Shown here: positions 3,037-58,198 of the stretch, piece after piece
Position numbering within the stretch: position 1 is the stretch's first letter
Layout: each line of letters begins with the position of its first letter
Origin: an uncultured Lachnospiraceae bacterium
GTDB lineage: Bacteria; Bacillota; Clostridia; Lachnospirales; Lachnospiraceae
Length of the DNA stretch: 62,306 nucleotides
Direction: 5' to 3'
Assembly: GCA_947384285.1 (NCBI GenBank)
Contig: CANDGI010000016.1
Span: 1-62,306, forward strand
Position numbers and translations under genes: made by a program
The notes under the pieces: generated by a model
The model's database searches: none
Told to the model about the DNA's origin: nothing
Seen by the model: the letters and a program-made list of their open reading frames with translations, nothing else

Positions 3037-5304
3037 ATGAGCGTTAACGTAAGGGAATTACTGGAACAGAAATGCTGCAATAATATCGCAGCCTGCACCA
3101 ATGAGCAGCTGTATTACGGGCTGTTAGGAATTGTAAAGGATCTGGCCAAAGAGAAGGAGAGCCAGGAAGGCAAAAAGAAAATCTACTATATTTCCGCAGA
3201 GTTTTTGATTGGAAAATTATTATCCAACAACCTGATTAACCTGGGGATTTATGATGAAGTGGCAGAAATGCTTGCACAGTATGGGAAAGACATCAGCCTG
3301 ATTGAGCAGGCAGAGCCGGAGCCATCCCTTGGAAATGGCGGATTGGGACGTCTGGCAGCATGTTTCCTTGATTCTATGGCAACCTTGGGCATGAACGGGG
3401 ATGGAATCGGGCTGAATTATCATTTCGGGCTGTTTTTGCAGACCTTTGAAAACCGCCTGCAGAAAGAAAATAAGAACCCCTGGATGGAAGCGGAAAGCTG
3501 GCTGACCAGAACGGATGTAAGCTATCCCATCCAATTCGGCGGATTTACCGTACAGTCCAGAATGTATGACCTGGATGTAACCGGATTTGAGAACAGAACC
3601 AATAAGCTGCATCTATTTGATATTGAGACAGTGGATGAAGGCCTGGTAGGGGATGGAATCAATTTTAACAAATGCGACATCATGAAAAACTTAACCTTGT
3701 TCTTGTATCCAGACGATTCGGATGATGCAGGAAGGCTTCTGCGTGTGTACCAGCAGTATTTTATGGTAAGCAATGCCGCACGCCTGATTTTGGCGGAATG
3801 CGAAGCAAAAGGCTGCAAGCTTTATGATTTGCCGGATTATGCAGCAATCCAGATTAATGACACCCACCCCAGCATGGTGATTCCAGAGCTCATCCGTCTG
3901 CTGATGGAACGGGGCATCCGCATGAATGACGCAATTGAAATCGCATCCAAGACCTGCGCATACACCAACCATACCATTTTGGCGGAGGCACTGGAAAAAT
4001 GGCCCATGGACTACCTGAACAAGGCAGTGCCCCAGCTGATGCCCATTATCCGTGAGCTGGACACCATGGTAAAAGATAAGTTTGAGGACAGCTCCGTAGC
4101 CATCATTGACGGGAATAACCTGGTACATATGGCAAATATGGACATCCACTACGGTTACAGCGTCAACGGGGTTGCATACCTCCACACAGAGATTTTAAAG
4201 AAAAACGAGCTGAATAATTTTTATAAAATTTATCCGGAAAAATTCAACAATAAGACCAACGGAATTACCTTCCGCCGCTGGCTGATGCACTGCAACAAAG
4301 GCTTAAGCCGCTATCTGGATGAGGTAATTGGAACCGGCTGGCATAAGGATGCGGATGAGCTTGAGAAGCTTCTTGCCTTTGCCGATGACGAAAAAGCATT
4401 GCAGAAGCTGCTGGAAATCAAGCATGAGAATAAGAAAAACCTTGTGGCTTACCTGAAGGAGAAACAGGGCGTGGAGCTGGACGAGAATTCTATTTTTGAT
4501 ATCCAGATTAAGCGCCTCCATGAGTATAAACGCCAGCAGATGAACGCATTGCATGTGATTCATAAATATCTGGAGATTAAGAAAGGGAAGAAGCCTGCCA
4601 CTCCTATCACCGTTATTTTCGGCGCCAAGGCGGCTCCTGCTTATGTGATTGCAAAAGACATTATCCATTTGATTTTGTGCCTGCAGGAGCTTGTGAACAA
4701 CGACCCGGAAGTAAGCCCTTACCTGAAAGTGGTTATGGTGGAAAACTACAACGTAACCAATGCGGAAAAGTTAATCCCAGCCTGTGACATTTCAGAGCAG
4801 ATTTCCCTGGCATCCAAGGAAGCGTCCGGAACCGGAAACATGAAATTTATGTTAAACGGCGCGGTAACCCTGGGAACTATGGACGGTGCAAATGTGGAGA
4901 TTGCAGACTTGGTTGGACAGGACAACATTTATATTTTTGGAGAAAGCTCCGACACAGTCATTGCCCATTATGAAAAGGCCGATTACGTGTCCAGAGCATT
5001 CTATGAAGAGAATGAGGACATCAAGGAAGCTGTGGACTTTATCGTAAGTGAAGAGATGATGAAGATTGGGCACAAAGAGCATTTGGAGCGTCTCTACAAC
5101 GAACTGCTGAATAAAGACTGGTTCATGACCCTCTTAGACTACAAGGATTATGCGGCAAAGAAAGAGGAAATCTACAAGGATTATGAAAACCGGACCGCAT
5201 GGGCGAAAAAGATGCTTGTCAATACGGCAAAAGCAGGATTTTTCTCCTCAGACCGGACAATAGCAGAATACGATAAAGATATCTGGAAGTTAAGTGGAAA
5301 ATAA
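3037..5304 (+). CDS. glgP: Glycogen/starch phosphorylase (GT35)
   Basis: Cytoplasmic enzyme that releases glucose-1-phosphate from the non-reducing ends of glycogen or maltodextrin with inorganic phosphate. The protein has 755 residues, at the short bacterial end of the family. Diagnostic segments are [20 protein letters not shown] in the N-terminal domain, [18 protein letters not shown], and [14 protein letters not shown], whose Lys603 is the expected pyridoxal-phosphate lysine. A GGAGG site precedes the ATG. The stop overlaps the start of sfsA (TAATG), so the two are translationally coupled. The divergent AraC regulator and the structured leader may control expression. Confidence 0.96.
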
Positions 5305-6089
5305 TGAAATATACGCGGATTACACAGGGACGTTTCTTGGAACGTCCCAACCGTTTTATTGCCCTGGTGGAAATAGACGGCCAAATAGAAAAATGCCATG
5401 TAAAAAATACCGGAAGATGCCGGGAGCTTCTGGTTCCAGGAGCCTTAGTCTGGCTGGAAAAAAGCGATAACCCCAGCCGGAAAACACAATATGACCTGGT
5501 TGCTGTCCGCAAACAATCCGCCAAAAAAGAGGGTTGTTTTGCAGGCAGCTGTTCCTCTGCCATGATAAATATGGATTCCCAATCCGCCAATTTAGTAGTC
5601 AGCTGTCCTTCCATCATGATAAATATGGATTCCCAAGCCCCAAACCAGGCAGTGCGGGAATGGCTGGAACAGAATAAAAGCCCTTTCCCAGAGCTTACGC
5701 TGATAAAGCCAGAATGCAGATACGGCGCTTCCAGGATTGATTTCTACGTAGAAACAGCAGGGGAACAGCCCCGAAAAATTTTTATCGAAGTAAAAGGCGT
5801 AACCTTGGAGGAGGATGGAATCGCAAGGTTCCCGGACGCCCCCACAGAACGAGGAATCAAGCACATGCTTGAACTGCAAAAGGCCATCCAAGAAGGATAC
5901 GAATCCTGCATCCTTTTCGTAATACAAATGAAAGGCATCCATCGGTTTGAACCCAACGACCTTACCCATCCCGCCTTCGGCGAAACCCTCCGCCAAGTGC
6001 ACAAAGCAGGCGTCAGCATTCTAGCCTACGACTGCAAAGTAACCCCAGAAGAAATCTTCCTGGACATGCCGGTAGAAGTAAAACTGTAG
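5304..6089 (+). CDS. sfsA: SfsA family nuclease/sugar-fermentation protein with internal duplication
   Basis: SfsA-family protein, first linked to maltose metabolism in E. coli; the family has an OB-fold DNA-binding N-terminus and a PD-(D/E)XK-like nuclease domain. Typical features here are CHVKNTGRCRELL (about residues 33-45), CRYGASRIDFY and IFIEVKGVTLEE. It has 261 residues against about 230-240 usually. The excess is an 18-codon tandem duplication: codons 82-99 and 100-117 both carry MINMDSQ (bases 5547-5600 and 5601-5654). It overlaps the glgP stop by one base, which ties it to glucan metabolism. Confidence 0.9.
   Translation: MKYTRITQGRFLERPNRFIALVEIDGQIEKCHVKNTGRCRELLVPGALVWLEKSDNPSRKTQYDLVAVRKQSAKKEGCFAGSCSSAMINMDSQSANLVVSCPSIMINMDSQAPNQAVREWLEQNKSPFPELTLIKPECRYGASRIDFYVETAGEQPRKIFIEVKGVTLEEDGIARFPDAPTERGIKHMLELQKAIQEGYESCILFVIQMKGIHRFEPNDLTHPAFGETLRQVHKAGVSILAYDCKVTPEEIFLDMPVEVKL
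5547..5654 (+). repeat. 54-bp in-frame tandem duplication inside sfsA
   Basis: Two 54-bp copies (5547-5600 and 5601-5654) sit side by side in frame. The core ATGATAAATATGGATTCCCA is identical, and the flanks have diverged by several substitutions, so the duplication is not brand new. Confidence 0.9.
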
Positions 6090-6285: not shown

Positions 6286-6354
6286 AGCGTTTCATATTCC
6301 GATACCCAGGAAGGACGGGATTCCCGCCCTTCCTGGGTATCCAATATGAAAAAT
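6286..6354. terminator. Long hairpin between convergent genes, probable bidirectional terminator
   Basis: A near-perfect inverted repeat has arms GATACCCAGGAAGG-CGGG (6301-6319) and CCCG-CCTTCCTGGGTATC (6323-6341), extended outward by TTTCATATT/AATATGAAA. This gives a stem close to 30 bp with a 3-base loop. It lies between convergent sfsA and the CNNM-type gene. It is longer than most terminators and might also be a small palindromic element. Bases 6090-6285 show no gene. Confidence 0.7.
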
Positions 6355-7631
6355 TATTCCTCTTCCTCCACAGCCTCCGGCAGCCGCATAAAAATCTTAT
6401 GAATTCGATTCTTTTCCATATCCTCCACCCGGAAATATATATGTTCCGGCGTGGTAATAGACTCTCCAGCCTTCGGAAGATGGTCCAAAAGCCCAATCAG
6501 ATACCCCCCAATGGAGTCGTAATCCTCCGAATCCAAATCAAGATCCAGCATATCGCGCAGATCATTAAGGCCCAAAGAGCCTTGTACCATATATTCCCGG
6601 TCATTGACCTTCTGGATGGGGTCTTCTTCGTCTGCATCATATTCATCCCGGATTTCTCCCACAATCTCTTCCAGCAGATCCTCCAGGGTAATCAGCCCTG
6701 CGGTTGCACCGTATTCGTCCAGCACAATGGCAATATTGATGGAGGATTTGCGCATTTCCAGAAGGAGATCCGCGGTATTCTTGTGTTCATAAGTGTAGTA
6801 AGGCTTGCGCATAATATTGCGGATGGAAAAATGTTCTTTGTCTTCATAGAGAAGCAGGTCTTTCATATTGATAATGCCGATGACATTATCTGTGGAATCC
6901 TCGTATACCGGAAGGCGTGTAAATTTGTCTTCCCGGAAAATTTCCAACAGTTCATAGTAGCTGCTGTTTACATCCGCAAAGGTCATATCAATTCTTGGCA
7001 CCATGACTTCCTTTGCCTGGGCATCCCCGAAATCAAATACATTGTTGATCATTTCGCGTTCTTCTGTTTCTATGACTCCCTCTTCATGGCTCACATCCAC
7101 AATGGTGCGCAGCTCGTCTTCTGTCATAGCGTTCTGCGCGCTGGAAGCATCCACACGCAGCAGTGTTAAGAAGCCAAGAGCCAGCTTGTTGATAATAAAT
7201 ATAACAGGGGTGAGCAGTTTCATAATTCCGCCGATAACTCCTGCGTAAGCCAGGGAAATAGTGTCTGCATAAATGGTTGCAAAGGTCTTAGGGGAAATTT
7301 CACCAAAGATAAGCACCAAAATAGTTAAAATTCCAGTTGCAATTCCAGCTCCGGCGCTCCCGAAGATTTTAGTGGCAAGGGTAGTGGCAAGGGAGGCAGA
7401 GGAAAGATTTACGATATTGTTTCCAATTAAAATGGCGCTAAGCATTTTGCCGGAATCATCGGTAATCTCCAGAACCTTTTTCGCCCGTTTGTTACCCTCC
7501 TCTGCCATGCTTCTGAGACGGATTTTATTTGAAGTGGTCAAGGCCGTTTCCGCTGAAGAAAAAAAGGCAGATAGCATTAGTAAAATAATAATGATAATTA
7601 ATTGTATGACGTCGCTTGAGTCCAAGTACAT
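6354..7631 (-). CDS. CNNM/CorC-type (DUF21-CBS-HlyC/CorC) membrane transporter
   Basis: A 425-residue membrane protein of the CorC/HlyC (CNNM) family, linked in other bacteria to magnesium or cobalt efflux. An N-terminal DUF21 domain with about four hydrophobic segments begins IIIIILLMLSAFFSSAETAL. Two CBS domains follow (VPRIDMTFADVNSSYYELLE, then a segment around IAIVLDEYGATAGLITLEDL). A C-terminal CorC/HlyC domain ends the protein. I place the start at ATG 7631, just before the first membrane helix; its AAAGGAG site is close. The frame stays open 103 codons further upstream through the 42-bp array, but that part looks non-coding. Confidence 0.87.
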   Translation of the reverse strand: MYLDSSDVIQLIIIIILLMLSAFFSSAETALTTSNKIRLRSMAEEGNKRAKKVLEITDDSGKMLSAILIGNNIVNLSSASLATTLATKIFGSAGAGIATGILTILVLIFGEISPKTFATIYADTISLAYAGVIGGIMKLLTPVIFIINKLALGFLTLLRVDASSAQNAMTEDELRTIVDVSHEEGVIETEEREMINNVFDFGDAQAKEVMVPRIDMTFADVNSSYYELLEIFREDKFTRLPVYEDSTDNVIGIINMKDLLLYEDKEHFSIRNIMRKPYYTYEHKNTADLLLEMRKSSINIAIVLDEYGATAGLITLEDLLEEIVGEIRDEYDADEEDPIQKVNDREYMVQGSLGLNDLRDMLDLDLDSEDYDSIGGYLIGLLDHLPKAGESITTPEHIYFRVEDMEKNRIHKIFMRLPEAVEEEE

Positions 7632-7708
7632 CTCTCCTTTCAACTTATTAATATAACGGAAGCAGGAGGATTTTGCAAGAAATTCCCACAAGTTTAGGGA
7701 AATTTTAG

Positions 7709-7876
7709 AAATAAAGGAAAGGGCTGGGCAAAAGGTGTTTTTATCTCTGGAAATAAAGGAAAAAGCTGGGCAAAAGGTGTTTTTATCTCTGGAAATAAAG
7801 GAAAAAGCTGGGCAAAAGGTGTTTTTATCTCTGGAAATAAAGGAAAAGGCTGGCCAAAGGGTGTTTTTATCTTTGG
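7709..7876. repeat. Four-copy 42-bp tandem repeat array
   Basis: Four head-to-tail 42-bp units lie at 7709-7750, 7751-7792, 7793-7834 and 7835-7876. Units 2 and 3 are identical; units 1 and 4 differ by a few bases. Each contains AAATAAAGG, GCTGG and GGTGTTTTTATCT. The array fills the divergent gap 7632-7961 between the CNNM-type gene and the membrane protein at 7962. No other gene is seen in that gap. Confidence 0.95.
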
Positions 7877-7961
7877 ATATCATTGGAAAGGAATAGTTTT
7901 GGCAGGGGCTGAATAGAATGGCATATAAGGAAAGGGACATCCACAGGAGGGAGGAAAAAAG

Positions 7962-8611: not shown

Positions 8612-9406
8612 ATGATAGGAAAAAAAGGGATTTTGGTGGTGAGCTTTGGTACAAGCTTCCCAGAAACCAGAGAAAAAACGATAGACCGCATTGAGGAGGA
8701 TATCAAAGATGCTTTTCCAGACTATGGATTTTACCGGGCCTGGACAAGCAAAATGATTATCGCCAAGCTTTTGAAACGAGATGGAATACGGATTCCAACG
8801 GTGGAGGAAGCCCTTGGGCAAATGCTGGCGGATGGCATCACGCAGGTGATTGTACAGCCCACCCATCTGATTAATGGGATAGAGAATGAGCGGATGAAGG
8901 AGGATGTATATACCTATGGGAAAGCCTTTGATAAAATCTCTTTTGGAAATCCCCTTTTAACCACAACAAGGGACCAGAGAAAGGTTTTGCAGGCGGTGAT
9001 GGAGGAATTTTCCGGTTTGGAAAAGGAAGAGGGGCTGGTTCTTATGGGGCATGGCACCCCTCATTATGCCAATGCCGTATATGCGGCATTGAACTATATG
9101 CTGAAGGATTTGGGGTATCCCAACGTATTTCTTGGAACCGTAGAGGAATATCCCTCCCTGGATATATTGCAAAGGCAGGTAGAGGAATTCCACCCGAAGA
9201 AAATCCTTTTGGCGCCGTTTATGGTGGTGGCAGGAGACCATGCCCTCCGCGACATGTCAGGGGAGAGTGAGGACTCCTGGCAGAGACGTTTTGAGGGCGC
9301 AGGTTTTTTGGTGGAATGCGTCATAAAGGGCCTCGGGGAATATGCTGGAATCCGCAGGATTTATGTGGAGCATGTGAAAGCTGCAGAGCGCTGGCAGCTT
9401 CCATAA
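8612..9406 (+). CDS. cbiK: Anaerobic sirohydrochlorin cobaltochelatase
   Basis: CbiK inserts cobalt into sirohydrochlorin in the anaerobic cobalamin pathway. The 264-residue length fits the class II chelatase. The N-terminal ILVVSFGTSFPETREKTI and the second-half metal-binding region LMGHGTPHYAN and FMVVAGDHALRDMSGE provide the histidines typical of the active site. It stands alone here: no other cbi genes and no cobalamin riboswitch were recognised in its 140-base leader. An extended -10 (TGTTATAAT, 8517-8525) precedes it. Its 3' end overlaps the convergent maturase gene by 86 bases. Confidence 0.92.
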   Translation: MIGKKGILVVSFGTSFPETREKTIDRIEEDIKDAFPDYGFYRAWTSKMIIAKLLKRDGIRIPTVEEALGQMLADGITQVIVQPTHLINGIENERMKEDVYTYGKAFDKISFGNPLLTTTRDQRKVLQAVMEEFSGLEKEEGLVLMGHGTPHYANAVYAALNYMLKDLGYPNVFLGTVEEYPSLDILQRQVEEFHPKKILLAPFMVVAGDHALRDMSGESEDSWQRRFEGAGFLVECVIKGLGEYAGIRRIYVEHVKAAERWQLP

Positions 9407-10493
9407 GCCCGTCCAGGCAGGCATCAAAAAATATCCGGTAGCTTTGGCAGAAGTAATTTTGGTATGCCTCTATTTCCGGGTTCCAGAGGCGGCTGCGCTG
9501 GCATCCGCCTTTGCATAGAGGATAGTAAGTACAAAGCTTACAGCTTTGCCCCAGAAGGAGGGAACGCTCCAAAAAGCCGGTTTCTCTTCTCCTGGCGTCG
9601 ATTTCGTCCAATCGGTTTTCATTAAAATTTCCCAGGCAGTATTCATCCATCATATAAAAATCGCAGGGATATACGCTGCCATCTGCTTCCACTGCATATT
9701 GGATGCTGCACATGCCGCGCTGGTCGCAGGATTCAGGGAACTGTCCCAGCAAAATGCCGAGATAGTTTTCAAATTGGCGGATGTAGGGCTGTCTGTTCTT
9801 TTTCCAATCTTTATACCACAAGTGGAACAGCTCTGTAAGGAACTGTCCATAGCTTTCTGGATGTATGGAACAGCTGTTTTTCCCATAAGGTTCACCAAAG
9901 GGATCCAGGCAGGCGATATACTGCTGGTAATTCCATTTCTGCCTCTTATAAAAGGCATAGATTTCCTGAATATTTTGAGCTACTGCCTGATTGGCTACTG
10001 TGAGAATGTTGAATTCCACATGATGCGCTTCCAGCAATGCAATGGATCTGGATACCCGGTCGAAAGTGGGCGCATTCTCTTTCCTGCTGTGGCGGAAGGC
10101 ATCGTGGGTTTTTTTGATTCCATCCAAGGAAACCCCTGTCAGAAAATGATTTTCCCTAAGGAAGCGGCACCAGGTTTCGTCCAGGATAAGCCCGTTGGTC
10201 TGCAGAGAATTATACACCTGGACGTTGTTTTTATTATATTGTTTTTGGTAGGATAGCACTTTTTCAAAAAAATCAAGTCCCCGCAGGGTTGGCTCCCCTC
10301 CCTGGAAGGTGTAGCTGGCCATGCCTTCAGCCCGCAGCAAGGTTTTTCGGATGACATTTTTTAAAGTTGCCTCGCTCATGAACCCGTAGGATGCCTGCGC
10401 CCGTTTTTGGGTTTCGTCACAGTAGAAACAATAATCGCATGTCATGTTGCACATGCCAGAAGATGGTTTGATTAATACGCTGATTGGCGGCAT
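9321..10493 (-). CDS. Anaerobic sulfatase-maturating radical SAM enzyme (anSME)
   Basis: Radical SAM protein of 390 residues that should oxidise the active-site cysteine of a sulfatase to formylglycine. The SAM-binding CX3CX2C motif is Cys15-Cys19-Cys22 (CNMTCDYC). TFQGGEPTLRG and SLDG belong to the radical SAM barrel. A SPASM/Twitch C-terminus shows CDQRGMCSIQYAVEADGSVY, CDFY and CKLCTYYPLCKGGCQRSR for two auxiliary Fe-S clusters. It lies 24 bases after the second CHR transporter gene on the same strand. The substrate is probably the sulfatase at 12640, which has a CxPxR motif. The last 86 bases overlap cbiK on the opposite strand. Confidence 0.9.
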   Translation of the reverse strand: MPPISVLIKPSSGMCNMTCDYCFYCDETQKRAQASYGFMSEATLKNVIRKTLLRAEGMASYTFQGGEPTLRGLDFFEKVLSYQKQYNKNNVQVYNSLQTNGLILDETWCRFLRENHFLTGVSLDGIKKTHDAFRHSRKENAPTFDRVSRSIALLEAHHVEFNILTVANQAVAQNIQEIYAFYKRQKWNYQQYIACLDPFGEPYGKNSCSIHPESYGQFLTELFHLWYKDWKKNRQPYIRQFENYLGILLGQFPESCDQRGMCSIQYAVEADGSVYPCDFYMMDEYCLGNFNENRLDEIDARRRETGFLERSLLLGQSCKLCTYYPLCKGGCQRSRLWNPEIEAYQNYFCQSYRIFFDACLDGLMEAASALQLSHAPHKSCGFQHIPRGPL

Positions 10494-10517
10494 AATAAAT
10501 CCTCGCTTTTCTTTCTA

Positions 10518-11072
10518 TTATAACATATGGATGCCCAGATAGGATATCCCGCATAGCGCCATGACAGGGATGGGATTGCATTTTCGTGTACGCAGGATTA
10601 CAAATGCCGCAAGAAAAATGACAGCCCCCGCCCAGTCTATGTTTTGCAGCTGGATATCCCTTTCTGCGAACAAGGCGGTTTGCGCGATGGTGAGCCCGGC
10701 TGAGGCAATCAGAGCCACCACGGCTGGGCGCAGGCTGGAAAGCACGCTTTGGAGCAAGGATGTCCCTTTATAATGGTAGTAAAGAAATGCAAGAAAAGGC
10801 ACAATGATGAAAGAAGGAAAAATGCATCCCAAGGTTGCAGCGAAAGCGCCTCCCATTCCGGCAATGCGGATTCCGACAAAAGTGGCGGAATTGACGGCCA
10901 TCGGCCCTGGGGTCATTTCGGCAATCGTAATCAGGTTCGTAAATTCGTCCATGCTCATCCAAGCGTGCAGTTCTACGATTTGGTTTTGGATCAACGGCAG
11001 GGCAGCATATCCCCCTCCAATGCTGAATAGTCCCACCTGGAAAAAACTGATAAATAATTGAATAAAAATCAT
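10518..11072 (-). CDS. CHR (chromate-type) transporter, second half-size subunit
   Basis: A half-length member of the CHR anion transporter family (184 aa from ATG 11072, about five to six hydrophobic segments). The family signature FSIGGGYAALPLIQ opens the protein, followed by TPGPMAVNSATFVG. Full-length ChrA fuses two such halves; paired short forms work together. Known members export chromate and are sensitive to sulfate. ATG 11072 overlaps the stop of the preceding half in an ATGA, showing tight coupling. Its location between its partner and the sulfatase maturase suggests an anion linked to sulfate ester breakdown, which is inference. Confidence 0.88.
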   Translation of the reverse strand: MIFIQLFISFFQVGLFSIGGGYAALPLIQNQIVELHAWMSMDEFTNLITIAEMTPGPMAVNSATFVGIRIAGMGGAFAATLGCIFPSFIIVPFLAFLYYHYKGTSLLQSVLSSLRPAVVALIASAGLTIAQTALFAERDIQLQNIDWAGAVIFLAAFVILRTRKCNPIPVMALCGISYLGIHML

Positions 11073-11629
11073 GGCGCTCCTTTCTTGCAACGAAAAATTT
11101 CCCGGATAATCCCAAAGGAAGCTACGGCCAAAATGATATAGACGACATTGATATTACAAAAAAAGGCAGCAATAAAAACAATGGCTGTCAAGAGGAGATT
11201 GACAATGGATTTTTCCTTCCATATAGTTTCCCCCAGGCTCCATACCACGTCAAAAATTATGGCGGCAACTCCGGCCTGCATGCCCTTTAATGCCAAGGCG
11301 GCATAGGGGTTTGCGAGAAAGGATGCATAAAAGAAGGAGATAATGGAAAGGATGGCTAAGGGCGGAAGGATAGTCCCCGCAACAGCGGCAGCAATCCCGG
11401 CGGCGCCGGCGGTCCGCCAGCCCACAAGGATTGCAGCATTCACTGCAATCGCCCCTGGGGAAGATTGGGATAGTGCGGCCAAATCCAGCATTTCCTGTTC
11501 ATCGATCCAGTGCAGTTTATCTACAAATTTCTGTTTCATGAGAGTGATGATTACGAAGCCGCCGCCAAAGGTAAAGGCACTGATATAAAGCATGCTAAAA
11601 AAAAGCTGTAGTAATTTTTTCTTTTTCAT
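11069..11629 (-). CDS. CHR (chromate-type) transporter, first half-size subunit
   Basis: First gene of the leftward operon, 186 residues and mostly hydrophobic. The CHR motif FTFGGGFVIITLM sits near the N-terminus and SQSSPGAIAVNAAILVG near residues 53-69. It presumably pairs with the following half-size subunit in the membrane. AGGAGA precedes the ATG at a good distance. Transcription should start from the TTTACA-N17-TATAAT promoter that overlaps the LysR promoter. Confidence 0.88.
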   Translation of the reverse strand: MKKKKLLQLFFSMLYISAFTFGGGFVIITLMKQKFVDKLHWIDEQEMLDLAALSQSSPGAIAVNAAILVGWRTAGAAGIAAAVAGTILPPLAILSIISFFYASFLANPYAALALKGMQAGVAAIIFDVVWSLGETIWKEKSIVNLLLTAIVFIAAFFCNINVVYIILAVASFGIIREIFRCKKGAP

Positions 11630-11663
11630 GTTTCTGTCTCCTGGGATTTTGTAATATATTTTG

Positions 11664-11702
11664 ATTATAAGGCTTGCACTGACATATGTAAAATGCTATT
11701 AT
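11664..11702. promoter_or_regulatory. Overlapping face-to-face divergent promoters of the sulfatase locus
   Basis: Rightward promoter: TTGCAC (11674-11679), 17 bases, TATTAT (11697-11702) with an extended TG. Leftward promoter: TTTACA (read on minus, 11692-11687), 17 bases, TATAAT (11669-11664). The two overlap by about 19 bases, so polymerase can occupy only one at a time. The LysR protein encoded at once to the right is the likely switch. Confidence 0.65.
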
Positions 11703-11753
11703 TTTATGGTAATCATATCAATTTTGGTATAAACAGTGGAATGGAGGTGGGAT

Positions 11754-12638
11754 ATGACGATACGGCATATGAAGATCTTTCTACAGGTCTACGCCTTGGA
11801 AAGCATCACAAGGGCTGCAGAAATTTTGAATATGACTCAGCCTGCCGTTACCCGTGCAATCCAGGAAATGGAGCATTACTATGGCGTCTGCCTGTTTGAG
11901 CGGATTGGCCATCGTTTAAGCCGCATGGCTGCTGGAGAAGAATTTTATGCCCATGCATTACATATTGTGGAAGCATTTGACAGAATGGAAAAGGAATTGC
12001 GGGATTGGGATGAGATTGGAAGAACCCGCATTGGGGCAACCAATACGCTGGGCTGCTTTTTTTTGCCGGAGCTGCTGCTTCAATTTCGGAAGCAGTACCC
12101 TAAACTGGAGATTATCTCTACAGTTACCAATGCAGACATGCTCCAAAACGGTCTTTTGGATAACCAGTATGACCTGGCTCTGATTGAAGGAAATGTCAGT
12201 GTGCAAAAGCTGCATGCCCAGCCCTTTGCCACAGACAAGCTGCTGCTTGTTCTTCCGCCGGGGCATGAGCTGGCGGAGAAAGAGAAGATCTGCCTTTCCG
12301 ATGTAGAGAAATATCCGCTGCTTCTTAGGGAAAAAGGGAGCACAACCCGTTCTCTGCTGGAACATTTTTTCTTTTTGCACCACATAGAGGCATCCCCTGT
12401 GATGGAAAGCTGCAATCCCCAGGCGCTTATCAAGGCTGTCCAATGTGGTCTTGGCATCTCATTTTTGCCAGAGCGGTGGGTAAGAGAGCAGGGGGATGAG
12501 GGGAGTCTGGTATTGCGGGAGATGGAGGAAGAAGGGTTTCAGAGGGAGAATTATGTAGTATGGCATGAAAACAAATTTTTATCAAAGACCATGAAGATGT
12601 TTATTGAGATAATAAAAGAGAAAGGACAGGGATATTGA
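11754..12638 (+). CDS. LysR family transcriptional regulator
   Basis: A 294-residue LysR-type regulator. The N-terminal winged helix-turn-helix reads IRHMKIFLQVYALESITRAA and TQPAVTRAIQEMEHYYG. The C-terminal periplasmic-binding-like effector domain begins at about residue 85 (RIGATNTLGCFFLPELLLQF). The ATG at 11754 has GGAGG 6 bases upstream and is preferred to an upstream ATG at 11736. The stop lies just before the sulfatase start, so the two are cotranscribed, and the gene is divergent from the CHR/anSME operon. Sulfate, a sulfated sugar or a CysB-like ligand are candidate effectors. Confidence 0.92.
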   Translation: MTIRHMKIFLQVYALESITRAAEILNMTQPAVTRAIQEMEHYYGVCLFERIGHRLSRMAAGEEFYAHALHIVEAFDRMEKELRDWDEIGRTRIGATNTLGCFFLPELLLQFRKQYPKLEIISTVTNADMLQNGLLDNQYDLALIEGNVSVQKLHAQPFATDKLLLVLPPGHELAEKEKICLSDVEKYPLLLREKGSTTRSLLEHFFFLHHIEASPVMESCNPQALIKAVQCGLGISFLPERWVREQGDEGSLVLREMEEEGFQRENYVVWHENKFLSKTMKMFIEIIKEKGQGY

Positions 12639-12639
12639 A

Positions 12640-13995
12640 ATGAATAGGCCGAATATTTTGTTTTATTTTTCTGATCAGCAACGTGCAGACACTTTAGGAT
12701 GTTATGGGCAGAAGCTGGATATCAGCCCTAATCTGGACAGGCTGGCAGCAGAAGGAGTGCTATTTGAAAATGCTTTTACTGCCCAGCCTGTATGCGGTCC
12801 TTGCAGGGCGTTGTTTCAGACAGGGCGTTATCCTACCGAGATTAATTGCTATCGGAATGGCCAGTCTCTTCCAGCCAACGTGAAAACTGTGGCAGATTAT
12901 ATGGATGAAGCAGGGTATGACAATGCTTATGTAGGAAAATGGCATCTGGCAAGCGACAGGGATAGTTATTCGCTTCCCCCTCGCACGGATTATGAGACGG
13001 CTCCTATCCCACCGGAGCGGCGAGGGGGGTATCGTGGGTTTTGGAGGGCTGCCGATGTGCTGGAGGCCACCTCGCATGGATATGACGGGTATGTTTTTGA
13101 TGAGGAAATGCAGAAAAGGGAATTCAGGGGATACCGTGTAGATTGCATCACGGATTTTGCGATGGAATATTTGGATCAATATAAGGGTGAAAAACCATTT
13201 TTTTTAACCATATCCCATATTGAGCCCCATCATCAAAACGACCGGGGCCGTTATGAGGGGCCGGATGGCTCCAAAGAGCGGTTTGCAGATTACGAACTGC
13301 CTGAGGATTTAAAAGCCCTTGGAGGGGATGCCGCTGAAATGTATCCTGATTATTTGGGCTGTTGTAAGAGCTTGGACAGCAGCTTAGGACGTTTGATAGA
13401 AAAGCTGAAGGAGATGGGCCTTTATGATAATACAGTTATTATTTATGCTTCGGATCACGGCTGTCATTTTAAAACCAGGAACAAAGATGAACATCTTATG
13501 GGGGCGGACGACTATAAACGCTCCTGCCATGACTCCTCCTTGAAGGTGCCCCTTGTGATTTCAGGGCCTGGATTCAGAGGAGGGAAAAGGGTCAAGGATC
13601 TGGTGAGCACAGCCAGCCTCCCCAAAACATTCCTTGCTATGGCAGGAATGGATATTGGAAATTTGATGATAGGGGAAAATCTAAAAGACCTAGCGGATGG
13701 AAAGAAACATCAGAGGGAAAACAGGGTCTTCGCCCAGATCAGTGAAAGCCGTACCGGAAGATGTATTCGGACAGAGGATTATCTCTACAGCGTATATGCC
13801 CCGGATTCAGATGGATGGCAGGAGGGAAGCAGCGATTACTACGAGGAGGATTTCTTGTACGATCTGAAAAAGGATCCATATCAGCTGAAAAATCTGGTGC
13901 GGGATCCAGAATATAAGGAAAAAAAGAAAGAGCTGTCCAAGCAGCTTTTGGATGAGATTGAGAAGGCAGAAGGAGTAAGGCCCGCCATCGGCTGA
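12640..13995 (+). CDS. Cysteine-type sulfatase
   Basis: Sulfatase of the alkaline phosphatase superfamily (451 aa) that hydrolyses sulfate esters. Asp12 in YFSDQQR and Asp272-His273 in YASDHGCH supply the metal site. Cys52 in VCGPCRALFQTGR is the residue to be turned into formylglycine. The motif is CGPCR instead of the common CxPSR. A C-terminal segment around FLYDLKKDPYQLKNLVRDPE is typical of the family. No signal peptide is seen, so the enzyme appears cytoplasmic and its substrate must be imported or produced inside. It starts one base after the LysR stop. The substrate is unknown; mucin or host glycan fragments are possible. Confidence 0.9.
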   Translation: MNRPNILFYFSDQQRADTLGCYGQKLDISPNLDRLAAEGVLFENAFTAQPVCGPCRALFQTGRYPTEINCYRNGQSLPANVKTVADYMDEAGYDNAYVGKWHLASDRDSYSLPPRTDYETAPIPPERRGGYRGFWRAADVLEATSHGYDGYVFDEEMQKREFRGYRVDCITDFAMEYLDQYKGEKPFFLTISHIEPHHQNDRGRYEGPDGSKERFADYELPEDLKALGGDAAEMYPDYLGCCKSLDSSLGRLIEKLKEMGLYDNTVIIYASDHGCHFKTRNKDEHLMGADDYKRSCHDSSLKVPLVISGPGFRGGKRVKDLVSTASLPKTFLAMAGMDIGNLMIGENLKDLADGKKHQRENRVFAQISESRTGRCIRTEDYLYSVYAPDSDGWQEGSSDYYEEDFLYDLKKDPYQLKNLVRDPEYKEKKKELSKQLLDEIEKAEGVRPAIG

Positions 13996-43831: not shown

Positions 43832-43845
43832 TAGCACGAACAACA

Positions 43846-43934
43846 GAACGCAGAGGGACTGCATAGCAGTTGAGAAGGTTAAAACCTGACTCTTTGAACC
43901 TGTCAGTTAATACTGTCGTAGGGAGCGGAAGATA
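43846..43934 (+). promoter_or_regulatory. TPP riboswitch (THI element)
   Basis: The thiamine pyrophosphate aptamer is recognisable by CGCAGAGGGA, then GTTGAGAAGG, ACCTGACTCTTTGAACCTG and TAATACTGTCGTAGGGA. These occupy the conserved order of the P2/P3 and P4/P5 helices. When TPP is bound the downstream terminator should form and switch off the thi operon. Confidence 0.93.
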
Positions 43935-43948
43935 TGTGCAAGGAAAAG

Positions 43949-44020: not shown

Positions 44021-45325
44021 ATGAGAGAATACGCAACTCAGATGGAAGCGGCCCGCAAGGGCATCGTAACAGAAGAGCTGAAAAAGGCAGCCCAAAAGGA
44101 GCGGATGTCCACAGAGGAATTGCTGCCGCTGGCAGCTCAGGGAAAAGTGGTTATCTGCGCCAACAGGAACCATGCCTGCATTGACCCGGAAGGGGTAGGC
44201 TCCATGCTGCGCACCAAGATAAACGTAAATATTGGGGTATCCCGGGACTGCAAGGATTATGATGTGGAGATGGAAAAAGTTATGGAAGCGGTAAACTTGG
44301 GCGCCCATGCCATTATGGATTTATCCTCCCATGGAGATACTATCCCATTCCGCAGAAAGCTTATTTCTGAATGCCCAGCCATGATTGGGACAGTGCCGGT
44401 ATACGATTCCGTCATCCATTACCAGAAGGACTTGGCGGACTTGACGGCGCAGGATTTTATTGACGTGGTAAGGCTGCATGCCGAAGACGGGGTAGATTTT
44501 GTAACCCTTCACTGTGGAATCACAAGAAAGACCATCGACCAGATTCGGAAGCACAAACGGAAAATGAATCTTGTATCCAGAGGAGGCTCTTTGGTATTTG
44601 CCTGGATGTGTATGACAGGGGAGGAAAATCCATTTTATGAATATTTTGATGACATTCTGGAAATCTGCCGGGAATATGACGTGACAATTTCCCTGGGGGA
44701 CGCCTGCCGGCCCGGCTGCCTGGCGGATGGTTCTGACGTATGCCAGATAGAGGAACTGGTGCGTCTGGGAGAATTGACGAAACGCGCTTGGGAAAAGGAT
44801 GTCCAGGTGATGGTGGAAGGGCCGGGGCATATGCCTATGGATCAGATTGCAGCCAACATGAAAATCCAGCAGTCCATTTGCATGGGTGCGCCTTTCTATG
44901 TGCTGGGGCCTATCGTGACAGACATTGCACCAGGCTATGACCATATCACCTCGGCCATCGGCGGAGCCATTGCAGCCCAGAACGGAGCGGCTTTCCTGTG
45001 CTATGTGACTCCGGCAGAACACTTGGCGCTGCCAAATGTGGAGGATGTGAAACAAGGCATCATTGCTTCAAAGATTGCGGCCCATGCAGCGGACATTGCA
45101 AAAGGAGTCCGGGGAGCTAGGGAAATAGATGATAAGATGGCAGAAGCGCGCAGAACCCTGGATTGGGAAGCCCAGTGGGAATGCGCCATAGATCCTGCAG
45201 CTGCAAAAAAAATCCGGGAAGACCGGAAACCAGAGCATGACGATACCTGTTCCATGTGTGGGAAATTCTGTGCAGTCCGAAGCATGAACAAAGCATTGTC
45301 CGGGGAATACATTGATATATTATAG
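44021..45325 (+). CDS. thiC: Phosphomethylpyrimidine synthase ThiC
   Basis: Radical SAM enzyme that rearranges aminoimidazole ribotide into hydroxymethylpyrimidine phosphate. It has 434 residues, the shorter clostridial form. Family segments are [40 protein letters not shown] and [18 protein letters not shown]. The C-terminal cluster motif reads [13 protein letters not shown], binding a 4Fe-4S cluster. AAGGAGG precedes ATG 44021. An upstream GTG at 43934 in the same frame overlaps the terminator and is rejected. It heads the riboswitch operon. Confidence 0.97.
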
Positions 45326-45331
45326 GAAGAA

Positions 45332-45396
45332 GGCTAATGCGAAGCATTATAGGAATGCCTTCTGACGATTTGCCGCCGGAGCGAAGAGGAGGGGGC
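45332..45396 (+). repeat. Dispersed intergenic repeat, copy 2
   Basis: Starts with the hairpin AATGC-GAA-GCATT and continues with GGAATGCCTTCTGACGATTT and GCCGCCGGAGCGAAGAGGAG. It lies between thiC and thiW. Matching sequences occur at 47596-47660 and 29713-29753. Confidence 0.75.
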
Positions 45397-45422
45397 GCTG
45401 CCTTGTGAAGGAGGAAGGATTA

Positions 45423-56863: not shown

Positions 56864-58051
56864 ATGAAATATAAACGTATTTTCACGATTGTTGTGGATT
56901 CCCTTGGCGCTGGGGCATTGCCGGATGCGGCAGAGTATGGGGATGCGGGCACAGACACCCTTGGGCATATTTCACAGAGCATGGATGAATTTCATATTCC
57001 AAATCTGCAGGCGCTTGGCATAGCCAATCTCCATCCCTTAAAGCAGGTGGAGGCAGTGGAGCGGCCCATGGGATATTATGCATATCTGAATGAGGCAAGC
57101 GCCGGAAAGGACACCATGACCGGCCATTGGGAAATGATGGGGCTTTACATTACAAAGCCGTTCCAGACATTTACGGAAAATGGGTTTCCCAAGGAGCTTT
57201 TGGATGAGCTGTCAAAGAGAACCGGGCGTGTGATTATTGGAAATAAAAGCGCCAGCGGAACAGAGATTTTAGAGGAATTGGCGGAGGAGGAGATTGCCAC
57301 AGGCCACATGATTGTATATACATCTGCGGATTCTGTTCTCCAGATTTGCGGGAATGAGGAAACCTTCGGCCTGGAGGAACTATACCGCTGCTGTGAGATT
57401 GCCCGTGAGATTACCAGGAAGGATGAGTGGAAGGTGGGCCGCGTCATTGCAAGGCCATATGTGGGAAAGAAAAAAGGAGAATTCAAAAGAACCAGCAACC
57501 GCCATGATTATGCCCTAAAGCCTTACGGAAGGACGGCGCTGAACGTGCTGAAGGATGCAGGGCTTGACGTAATATCAGTAGGCAAGATTTTTGATATTTT
57601 TGACGGCGAGGGGCTGACCGAATCCAATAAATCCCAAAGCTCGGTTCATGGGATGGAGCAGGCTATGGAAATTGCAAAAAGGGATTTTGTGGGGCTTTGC
57701 TATGTGAACCTTGTGGATTTTGACGCTTTGTGGGGGCACCGGAGGGATGTGGATGGCTATGCCAGGGAATTGGAGAAATTTGACAGAAAGCTGGGAGAGC
57801 TGCTTGGCCTTTTCAGAGAAGATGATTTGCTGGTGATTACGGCGGATCATGGAAACGACCCCACCCATACAGGCACAGACCATACAAGGGAGAGAGTTCC
57901 CTTCCTGGCATATTCCCCTTCCATGGAAGGTTTTGGAAGATTAGCGGATTCCCCCGATTTTGCAATGGTTGGCGCAACGATCGTGGATAACTTCGGGCTG
58001 AAAATGCCGGATGGCACAATTGGCGCCTCCATTCTTAGGCAGTTGAATTAA
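56864..58051 (+). CDS. deoB: Phosphopentomutase
   Basis: Interconverts (deoxy)ribose-1-phosphate and 5-phosphate in nucleoside breakdown. The 395-residue alkaline phosphatase-fold protein begins [19 protein letters not shown], with metal-binding Asp and the DTLGH motif. [13 protein letters not shown] holds the phosphorylated Thr. [20 protein letters not shown] binds the second metal. GGGAG lies upstream. The final codons form the first of three 72-bp tandem copies. deoC follows, forming a deoxyribonucleoside operon. Confidence 0.97.
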
Positions 58052-58198
58052 AATGTGGATAATTTCGGGCTGAAAATGCCAGATGGCACAATTGGCGCCT
58101 CCATTCTTAGGCAGTTGAATTAAAATGTGGATAATTTCGGGCTGAAAATGCCAGATGGCACAATCGGCGCCTCCATTCTTGGGCAGTTGAATTAAAAT
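57983..58198 (+). repeat. Three-copy 72-bp tandem repeat from the deoB 3' end
   Basis: Copies are 57983-58054, 58055-58126 and 58127-58198, differing by only a few bases. The first holds the last 22 codons and the stop of deoB. Each later copy repeats them with the stop but without a start signal. The unit length is a multiple of three. Confidence 0.97.

Follow-up and report, generated by a model that had tools for sequence, protein, structure and literature searches.

A 62,306-nucleotide stretch of contig CANDGI010000016.1 from an uncultured Lachnospiraceae bacterium (GCA_947384285.1; hereafter the window) carries a divergent block of five genes, in which a pair of half-size transporter genes of the CHR superfamily runs leftward into the gene of an anaerobic sulfatase maturase (anSME), while a LysR-type regulator gene runs rightward into the gene of a cysteine-type sulfatase (Table 1). 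Of 100 other maturase loci, 10 also have a CHR pair close to the maturase, and these ten are spread over several families and two CHR clades. The arrangement suggests that the sulfatase frees sulfate in the cytosol, that the CHR pair exports it and that the LysR protein senses an oxyanion and switches the module, a reading to which we assign a probability of roughly 0.5. A preliminary description of this DNA had proposed such a module and is partly supported: the module recurs, with co-directional CHR and maturase genes separated by short gaps in several families.

The recurrence was measured in two sets of maturase loci. The family set comprised 40 of the 41 other maturase loci (at least 319 bits) from 200 genomes of the window's family (G024 left out), and the class set 60 of 63 further loci from 391 genomes of its class (G309, G263 and G283:C215 left out); the stretches, at most 19 kb long and truncated where a contig ended, were labelled with profiles built from the window's proteins and their relatives. 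A CHR pair was present in 5/40 family loci (L047, L054, L059, L065 and L068) and in 5/60 class loci (L089, L093, L094, L115 and L132), the latter belonging to families f25, f51 (two loci), f86 and f29, none of which is the window's family; four of the ten show a CHR-CHR-maturase run. The expected numbers were 0.26 for the family set (Poisson P = 7e-6, about 20 times chance) and about 0.53 for the class set (P = 2e-4), under models that treat gene positions as random and that derive the family expectation from CHR counts and genome sizes and the class expectation from an assumed 1.2 CHR pairs per 2.6-Mb genome. At the level of whole genomes the association of CHR and maturase is weak (31/38 against 100/161, p = 0.023, uncorrected for genome size). 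The neighbourhood of CHR pairs and anSME pointed out in the preliminary description is not confined to one strain, and a strain-specific oddity is rejected both by this survey and by the CHR-centred one described below.

In the window, L047, L089, L093, L094, L133 and L136 the CHR genes run co-directionally into the maturase gene, the gap measuring 9 to 166 bp. The sulfatase is joined directly to the CHR genes in L065, L148 and L209, and the LysR gene is directly joined to the maturase or sulfatase gene in the window, L068, L133, L140 and L165, and also in L071, with the maturase first. In the other linked loci the genes are convergent or at least one gene apart. L133, from Lachnospiraceae bacterium 3-1, matches the window in its four protein types and in the order of the five genes. 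In L071 (9040-11066) the maturase is followed directly by the same type of LysR and the stretch holds no CHR pair.

Table 1. Features of the sulfatase and CHR block, in window coordinates
Feature	Positions	Strand	Evidence
Anaerobic sulfatase maturase (anSME), radical SAM/SPASM	9321..10493	-	TIGR03942, 370.1 bits
CHR half-transporter, second of pair	10518..11072	-	PF02417, 166.4 bits
CHR half-transporter, first of pair, with QSSPG motif	11069..11629	-	PF02417, 146.2 bits
ATGA stop/start overlap of the two CHR genes	11069..11072	-	Sequence
Divergent region between CHR and LysR genes	11630..11753	-	Largely identical to Lachnospiraceae bacterium 3-1 (two sequences compared)
CHR-side promoter-like site, TTTACA-17-TATAAT	11664..11692	-	11/12 consensus matches
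LysR-type regulator	11754..12638	+	Best curated matches YeiE and others, all below cut-off
Type I sulfatase, Cys type, apparently cytosolic	12640..13995	+	PF00884, 162.3 bits
CGPCR motif, Cys52 the predicted formylglycine site	12793..12807	+	Sequence; C52, P54 and R56 invariant in alignment

All five genes named in the preliminary description, two overlapping leftward CHR halves leading into a true anSME and a LysR gene abutting a CGPCR sulfatase gene, are present. The CHR proteins form a short-chain pair of two single CHR domains of ~190 amino acids encoded in tandem, both above the PF02417 cut-off of 28.6 bits; neither reached the ChrA/ChrB NCBIfam cut-offs of 250 bits (84 and 69 bits at best), and sequence comparison found no solved CHR structure. 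The second half begins with ATG, the TTG at 11090 in the list of open reading frames (ORFs) being an extension, and ends 24 bp before the maturase. The LysR gene likely starts at ATG 11754 rather than at the listed GTG 11736, and a single base separates its stop from the sulfatase ATG. The promoter-like site in the divergent region is a consensus match only, one of two such sites there against 1.1 expected in shuffles. The maturase exceeds the TIGR03942 cut-off of 349.45 bits and carries the CxxxCxxC motif (CNMTCDYC) and a SPASM domain (PF13186, 31.2 bits, cut-off 21.5), but falls short of the PRK13758 equivalog NF010321 (399 bits, cut-off 441). At its 3' end the maturase gene overlaps a convergent cbiK-like gene (8612-9406) by 86 bp, and in L133 the maturase shares 80 bp with a 264-amino-acid ORF, the same size as the window's CbiK-like ORF.

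The CHR pair is the sole one found in the window's assembly (3.2 Mb, 83% complete), and the maturase is the only TIGR03942 match over the cut-off there, the next reaching 188 bits. The assembly holds one other PF00884 match, in a frame of 778 amino acids, and a related genome (G176) holds one in a frame of 754; by size alone we take both for candidate lipoteichoic-acid-synthase-like enzymes. The maturase therefore most likely serves the adjoining sulfatase. G176, of the same genus, has neither a PF02417 match nor a maturase close to the cut-off, and the best matches to cbiK and clpB are on separate contigs there.

The sulfatase begins directly with its fold (MNRPNILFYFSDQQ), with no signal peptide apparent by eye. 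This agrees with the earlier claim that sulfate is released in the cytoplasm. Across 18 aligned sulfatases D12, C52, P54, R56, H102, H197, D272 and K293 are invariant and H273 is present in at least 90%, residues which we take to have metal and catalytic roles. The solved chains most similar in sequence carry sulfatase names, several of them for enzymes acting on carbohydrates, and the protein falls under every cut-off of the arylsulfatase, choline-sulfatase and PehA equivalogs. A hydrophobicity rule combined with inspection by eye indicated that the 18 sulfatase ORFs read in CHR loci are cytosolic-looking (L059 contributes two short pieces to this number); the two that the rule flagged (in L065 and L156) are ORF extensions. 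Location does not separate these from sulfatases of maturase loci lacking CHR, nearly all 45 of which are also cytosolic-looking, and an exported-sulfatase contrast was rejected (6/45 flagged, four clearly exported by eye: L077, L098 twice and L099). The CHR-joined sulfatase of L065 (11074-12777) shows CIAAR (C-x-A-x-R) instead of the expected CxPxR, and three short sulfatase-like ORFs stand in a row upstream of the LysR-CHR block in L059 (1-4395), perhaps pieces of broken genes or assembly errors.

Relatives of the window's sulfatase were found at 91% identity in L133 and at ~65% in L136, L163 (Anaerotruncus colihominis) and L120, the last with a maturase and no CHR pair in its stretch; the L132 sulfatase is 49% identical, and its CHR pair falls in a distant group. 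A regulator of the GntR/LacI type adjoins the sulfatase in L163, L120 and L136. In L163 (9333-13899) a CGPCR sulfatase gene lies directly downstream of TctA, TctB and TctC matches, and in L120 a gene for a sugar-type binding protein is close to the sulfatase. These neighbours suggest a small imported sulfated compound as the substrate, with the TctABC-type importer of L163 as a candidate route. The block was earlier called self-contained, which holds for maturation and disposal; it does not hold for uptake, as the five genes include no importer of a sulfated substrate. Since no other transporter is encoded among them, the CHR pair might itself bring in a sulfated substrate or oxyanion on which the sulfatase then works, and two statements on fungal CHR would fit this: a work on fungal CHR-1 is cited in PMC8550094 under a title that has it causing chromium accumulation, and the available text of that paper gives the Neurospora CHR gene trm-50 as up 45-fold in sulfur starvation. 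Import is nevertheless improbable, given that the sulfatase relatives in L163 and L120 lie near importer genes of their own and that the half-size bacterial pair studied is described, in the excerpt of PMC8940164, as an exporter.

The linkage was also surveyed from the CHR side, with a result that favours the proposed export. A scan of named genomes was seeded with six linked first halves (the window's and those of five relatives), and a readable pair was present in 79 of the 80 loci taken, the best 80 of at least 556 relatives; within 8 kb of the pair a maturase was found in 18/79, a sulfatase in 10/79 and either one in 20/79, the last fraction being biased upward by the seeding with linked CHR pairs. 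Several points weigh against the export of sulfate by the CHR pair. A fairer contrast is provided by 40 generic CHR pairs of the family, the best generic PF02417 matches, none of which is linked to a sulfatase or maturase (stretches L228, L236 and L238 covering no more than 3 to 5 kb each). The linkage thus concerns just a part of the CHR family, and CHR as a universal sulfatase partner is rejected. Fourteen of the 39 generic loci that could be placed in a 129-row tree (one gave no pair) are unlinked inside the window's large clade. Ninety of the 100 maturase loci have no CHR pair in their stretch, some of these stretches being shortened by contig ends. LysR accompanies 18/79 seeded CHR pairs that have neither maturase nor sulfatase nearby, so that its signal need not be sulfatase-specific. 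Outside these data, two CHR genes are placed in arsenic operons (PMC4435449, available in part), and a Synechococcus CHR mutant is listed as growing worse under phosphate lack, at 64% in the table (excerpt of PMC11358556). Finally, with CysD encoded in the window's own genome, some of the sulfate could be assimilated there and is not an absolute dead end.

On a tree of 90 CHR pairs linkage occurs in two far-apart groups, and the linkage label changes 18 times, with at least seven changes forced by strongly supported branches (nine in the 129-row tree), indicating that linkage has arisen or been lost several times. The label is nonetheless clustered, 18 changes against 26 in shuffles and beyond any of 500 shuffles, so that part of the recurrence reflects shared descent. 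In the 129-row tree 25/39 generic loci group separately, adjacent to the five distant linked class loci. Two linked seeded loci (L200 and L211) lie in Spirochaetes bins. The QSSPG motif of the first half was present in 24/31 linked, 38/59 unlinked and 7/39 generic loci, and thus marks a group and not the linkage.

Among 125 of the 143 genes flanking CHR pairs with a maturase (the window's five and 13 overlapping, short or very long ORFs were left out), the recurrent types were LysR (15), sulfatase (10, partly expected because the maturase was the basis for selecting this set), AraC-type regulators (9) and cupins (6). Where the stretch around a CHR pair held no maturase, LysR was the sole clearly recurrent family (15 of 118 flanking genes), followed by MatE with four; two of these loci, L148 and L212, do hold a sulfatase, and one L148 flanking ORF was replaced by the sulfatase ORF on the opposite strand.

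Both LysR family domains are present in the window's regulator, HTH_1 (PF00126) at 61 bits and LysR_substrate (PF03466) at 169.4 bits, and its gene is divergent from the CHR genes. Identity with YeiE (NF040889) was rejected at 190.7 bits against a curated cut-off of 480. The CHR pair and LysR might together form a general oxyanion-stress cassette, acting on chromate, selenate, sulfite, arsenate or another anion, with the proximity to sulfatase due to loose clustering of sulfur genes. The 18 seeded loci with LysR-CHR-CHR alone and the arsenic operons fit such a cassette, as does the occurrence of LysR within 1.5 kb of the pair in 12/40 generic loci (29/79 in the seeded scan); the best curated matches of the regulator, all below cut-off, moreover include YeiE (sulfite) and a selenium-associated LysR. 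Repeated maturase junctions in separate CHR groups and families, ~20-fold above chance in the family sample, make this explanation rather unlikely.

The fate of the released sulfate was approached through the enzymes of sulfate activation. CysD exceeded its cut-off in 2/11 linked genomes, the window's own and G258 (G148 gave a weak match, far below cut-off), and PF01747 ATP sulfurylase was found in 0/11, leaving nine with neither; two of these, G170 (79%) and G514 (83%), are incomplete, and in draft genomes a missing gene counts for less than a gene that is present. CysD was found in 41/200 family genomes and, with the window's own genome excluded, in 4/38 maturase-bearing (at least 319 bits) family genomes against 36/161 others. 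As most linked genomes lack the sulfate-activating enzymes searched for, the released sulfate is probably waste in most of them, and a dianion in the cytosol would need an exporter. The CysD of the window's genome and of G258 would suit sulfur scavenging, in which ester sulfate feeds cysteine synthesis and the CHR pair takes up or balances sulfate; with neither enzyme in 9/11 linked genomes and CysD the scarcer in maturase-bearing family genomes, scavenging appears decidedly improbable.

No paper describing a linkage of CHR to a sulfatase maturase or sulfatase was found in the open-access literature, judging from titles and the openings of abstracts. The window's pair resembles Bacillus subtilis YwrB/YwrA (chr3N/chr3C), described in the excerpt of PMC8940164 as a Cr efflux system suspected of co-extruding sulfate, made of two mono-domain CHR proteins whose genes lie together with that of a regulator; the same source refers to Nies 1998, a work with chromate/sulfate antiporters in its title. 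In that excerpt the regulator is the Lrp-type ChrS and the pair was assayed for chromate tolerance, whereas the window's pair is accompanied by LysR, maturase and sulfatase. The available text of PMC5699817 gave no further information on sulfate efflux. A connection of CHR proteins with sulfate is an old idea; the part that seems new is the genomic link to sulfatase maturation. A LysR gene beside a membrane-protein gene is also found in the Salmonella sulfite-resistance pair YeiE-YeiH, in which YeiE governs the adjacent yeiH against sulfite and some YeiH orthologues are annotated as putative sulfate exporters (PMC12880088, available in part). That pair comes without a sulfatase or maturase, and the window's LysR is far below the YeiE cut-off. 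YeiH is presumably another kind of transporter than CHR. The TIGR03942 maturase with a CxPxR sulfatase is shared with the anSME-sulfatase pairs of anaerobes; 90 of the 100 other maturase loci have no CHR pair, whereas the window's maturase has a candidate transporter for the freed anion next to it. Sulfatases work in lysosomes. The lysosomal sulfate transporter SLC26A11 moves sulfate out of that compartment (PMC13408680, available in part), which offers an analogy of role only, in an unrelated protein and organism.

In the proposed module the maturase would turn Cys52 of the sulfatase into formylglycine in the cytosol, as its family and the motif suggest, and the sulfatase would strip sulfate from a small sulfated compound already in the cell, probably a sugar or organic acid derivative. 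The two CHR halves may act as one anion transporter that expels the released sulfate. The LysR protein, encoded between the divergent units, would sense sulfate or a related oxyanion and switch both of them, the CHR-CHR-maturase genes to one side and the LysR and sulfatase genes to the other. We suggest tentatively, and at slightly less than even odds, that some half-size CHR groups natively export sulfate from cytosolic sulfatases; their hosts would be anaerobes that for the most part cannot assimilate sulfate, and an oxyanion-sensing LysR would exert the control.

Elsewhere in the window, a gene at 5304-6089 that we take to be SfsA-like appears to repeat part of itself in frame, with INMDSQ occurring twice. 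A 42-bp tandem repeat in four copies (95% match) occupies 7708-7877, in frame near the start of the long ORF 6354-7940, which by eye encodes a CorC-like membrane protein and may really begin only after the repeats. Three near-identical 72-bp copies at 57983-58198 stand at the end of ORF 56864-58051 and extend beyond its stop, and a TPP riboswitch (43842-43941) and a GA-cis RNA (45321-45406) are also present.

CHR proteins are known mostly via chromate, an unlikely everyday substrate in anaerobes of animal guts, and the repeated junction with a sulfatase maturase names a natural CHR substrate that can be tested. If the proposed export of sulfate is true, bacteria with intracellular desulfation would gain the step of sulfate disposal that has been missing for them, and it would provide both a physiological substrate for the CHR family and a bacterial counterpart of lysosomal sulfate export. 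The released sulfate could feed sulfide-forming neighbours, which would make the exporter a possible point of cross-feeding.

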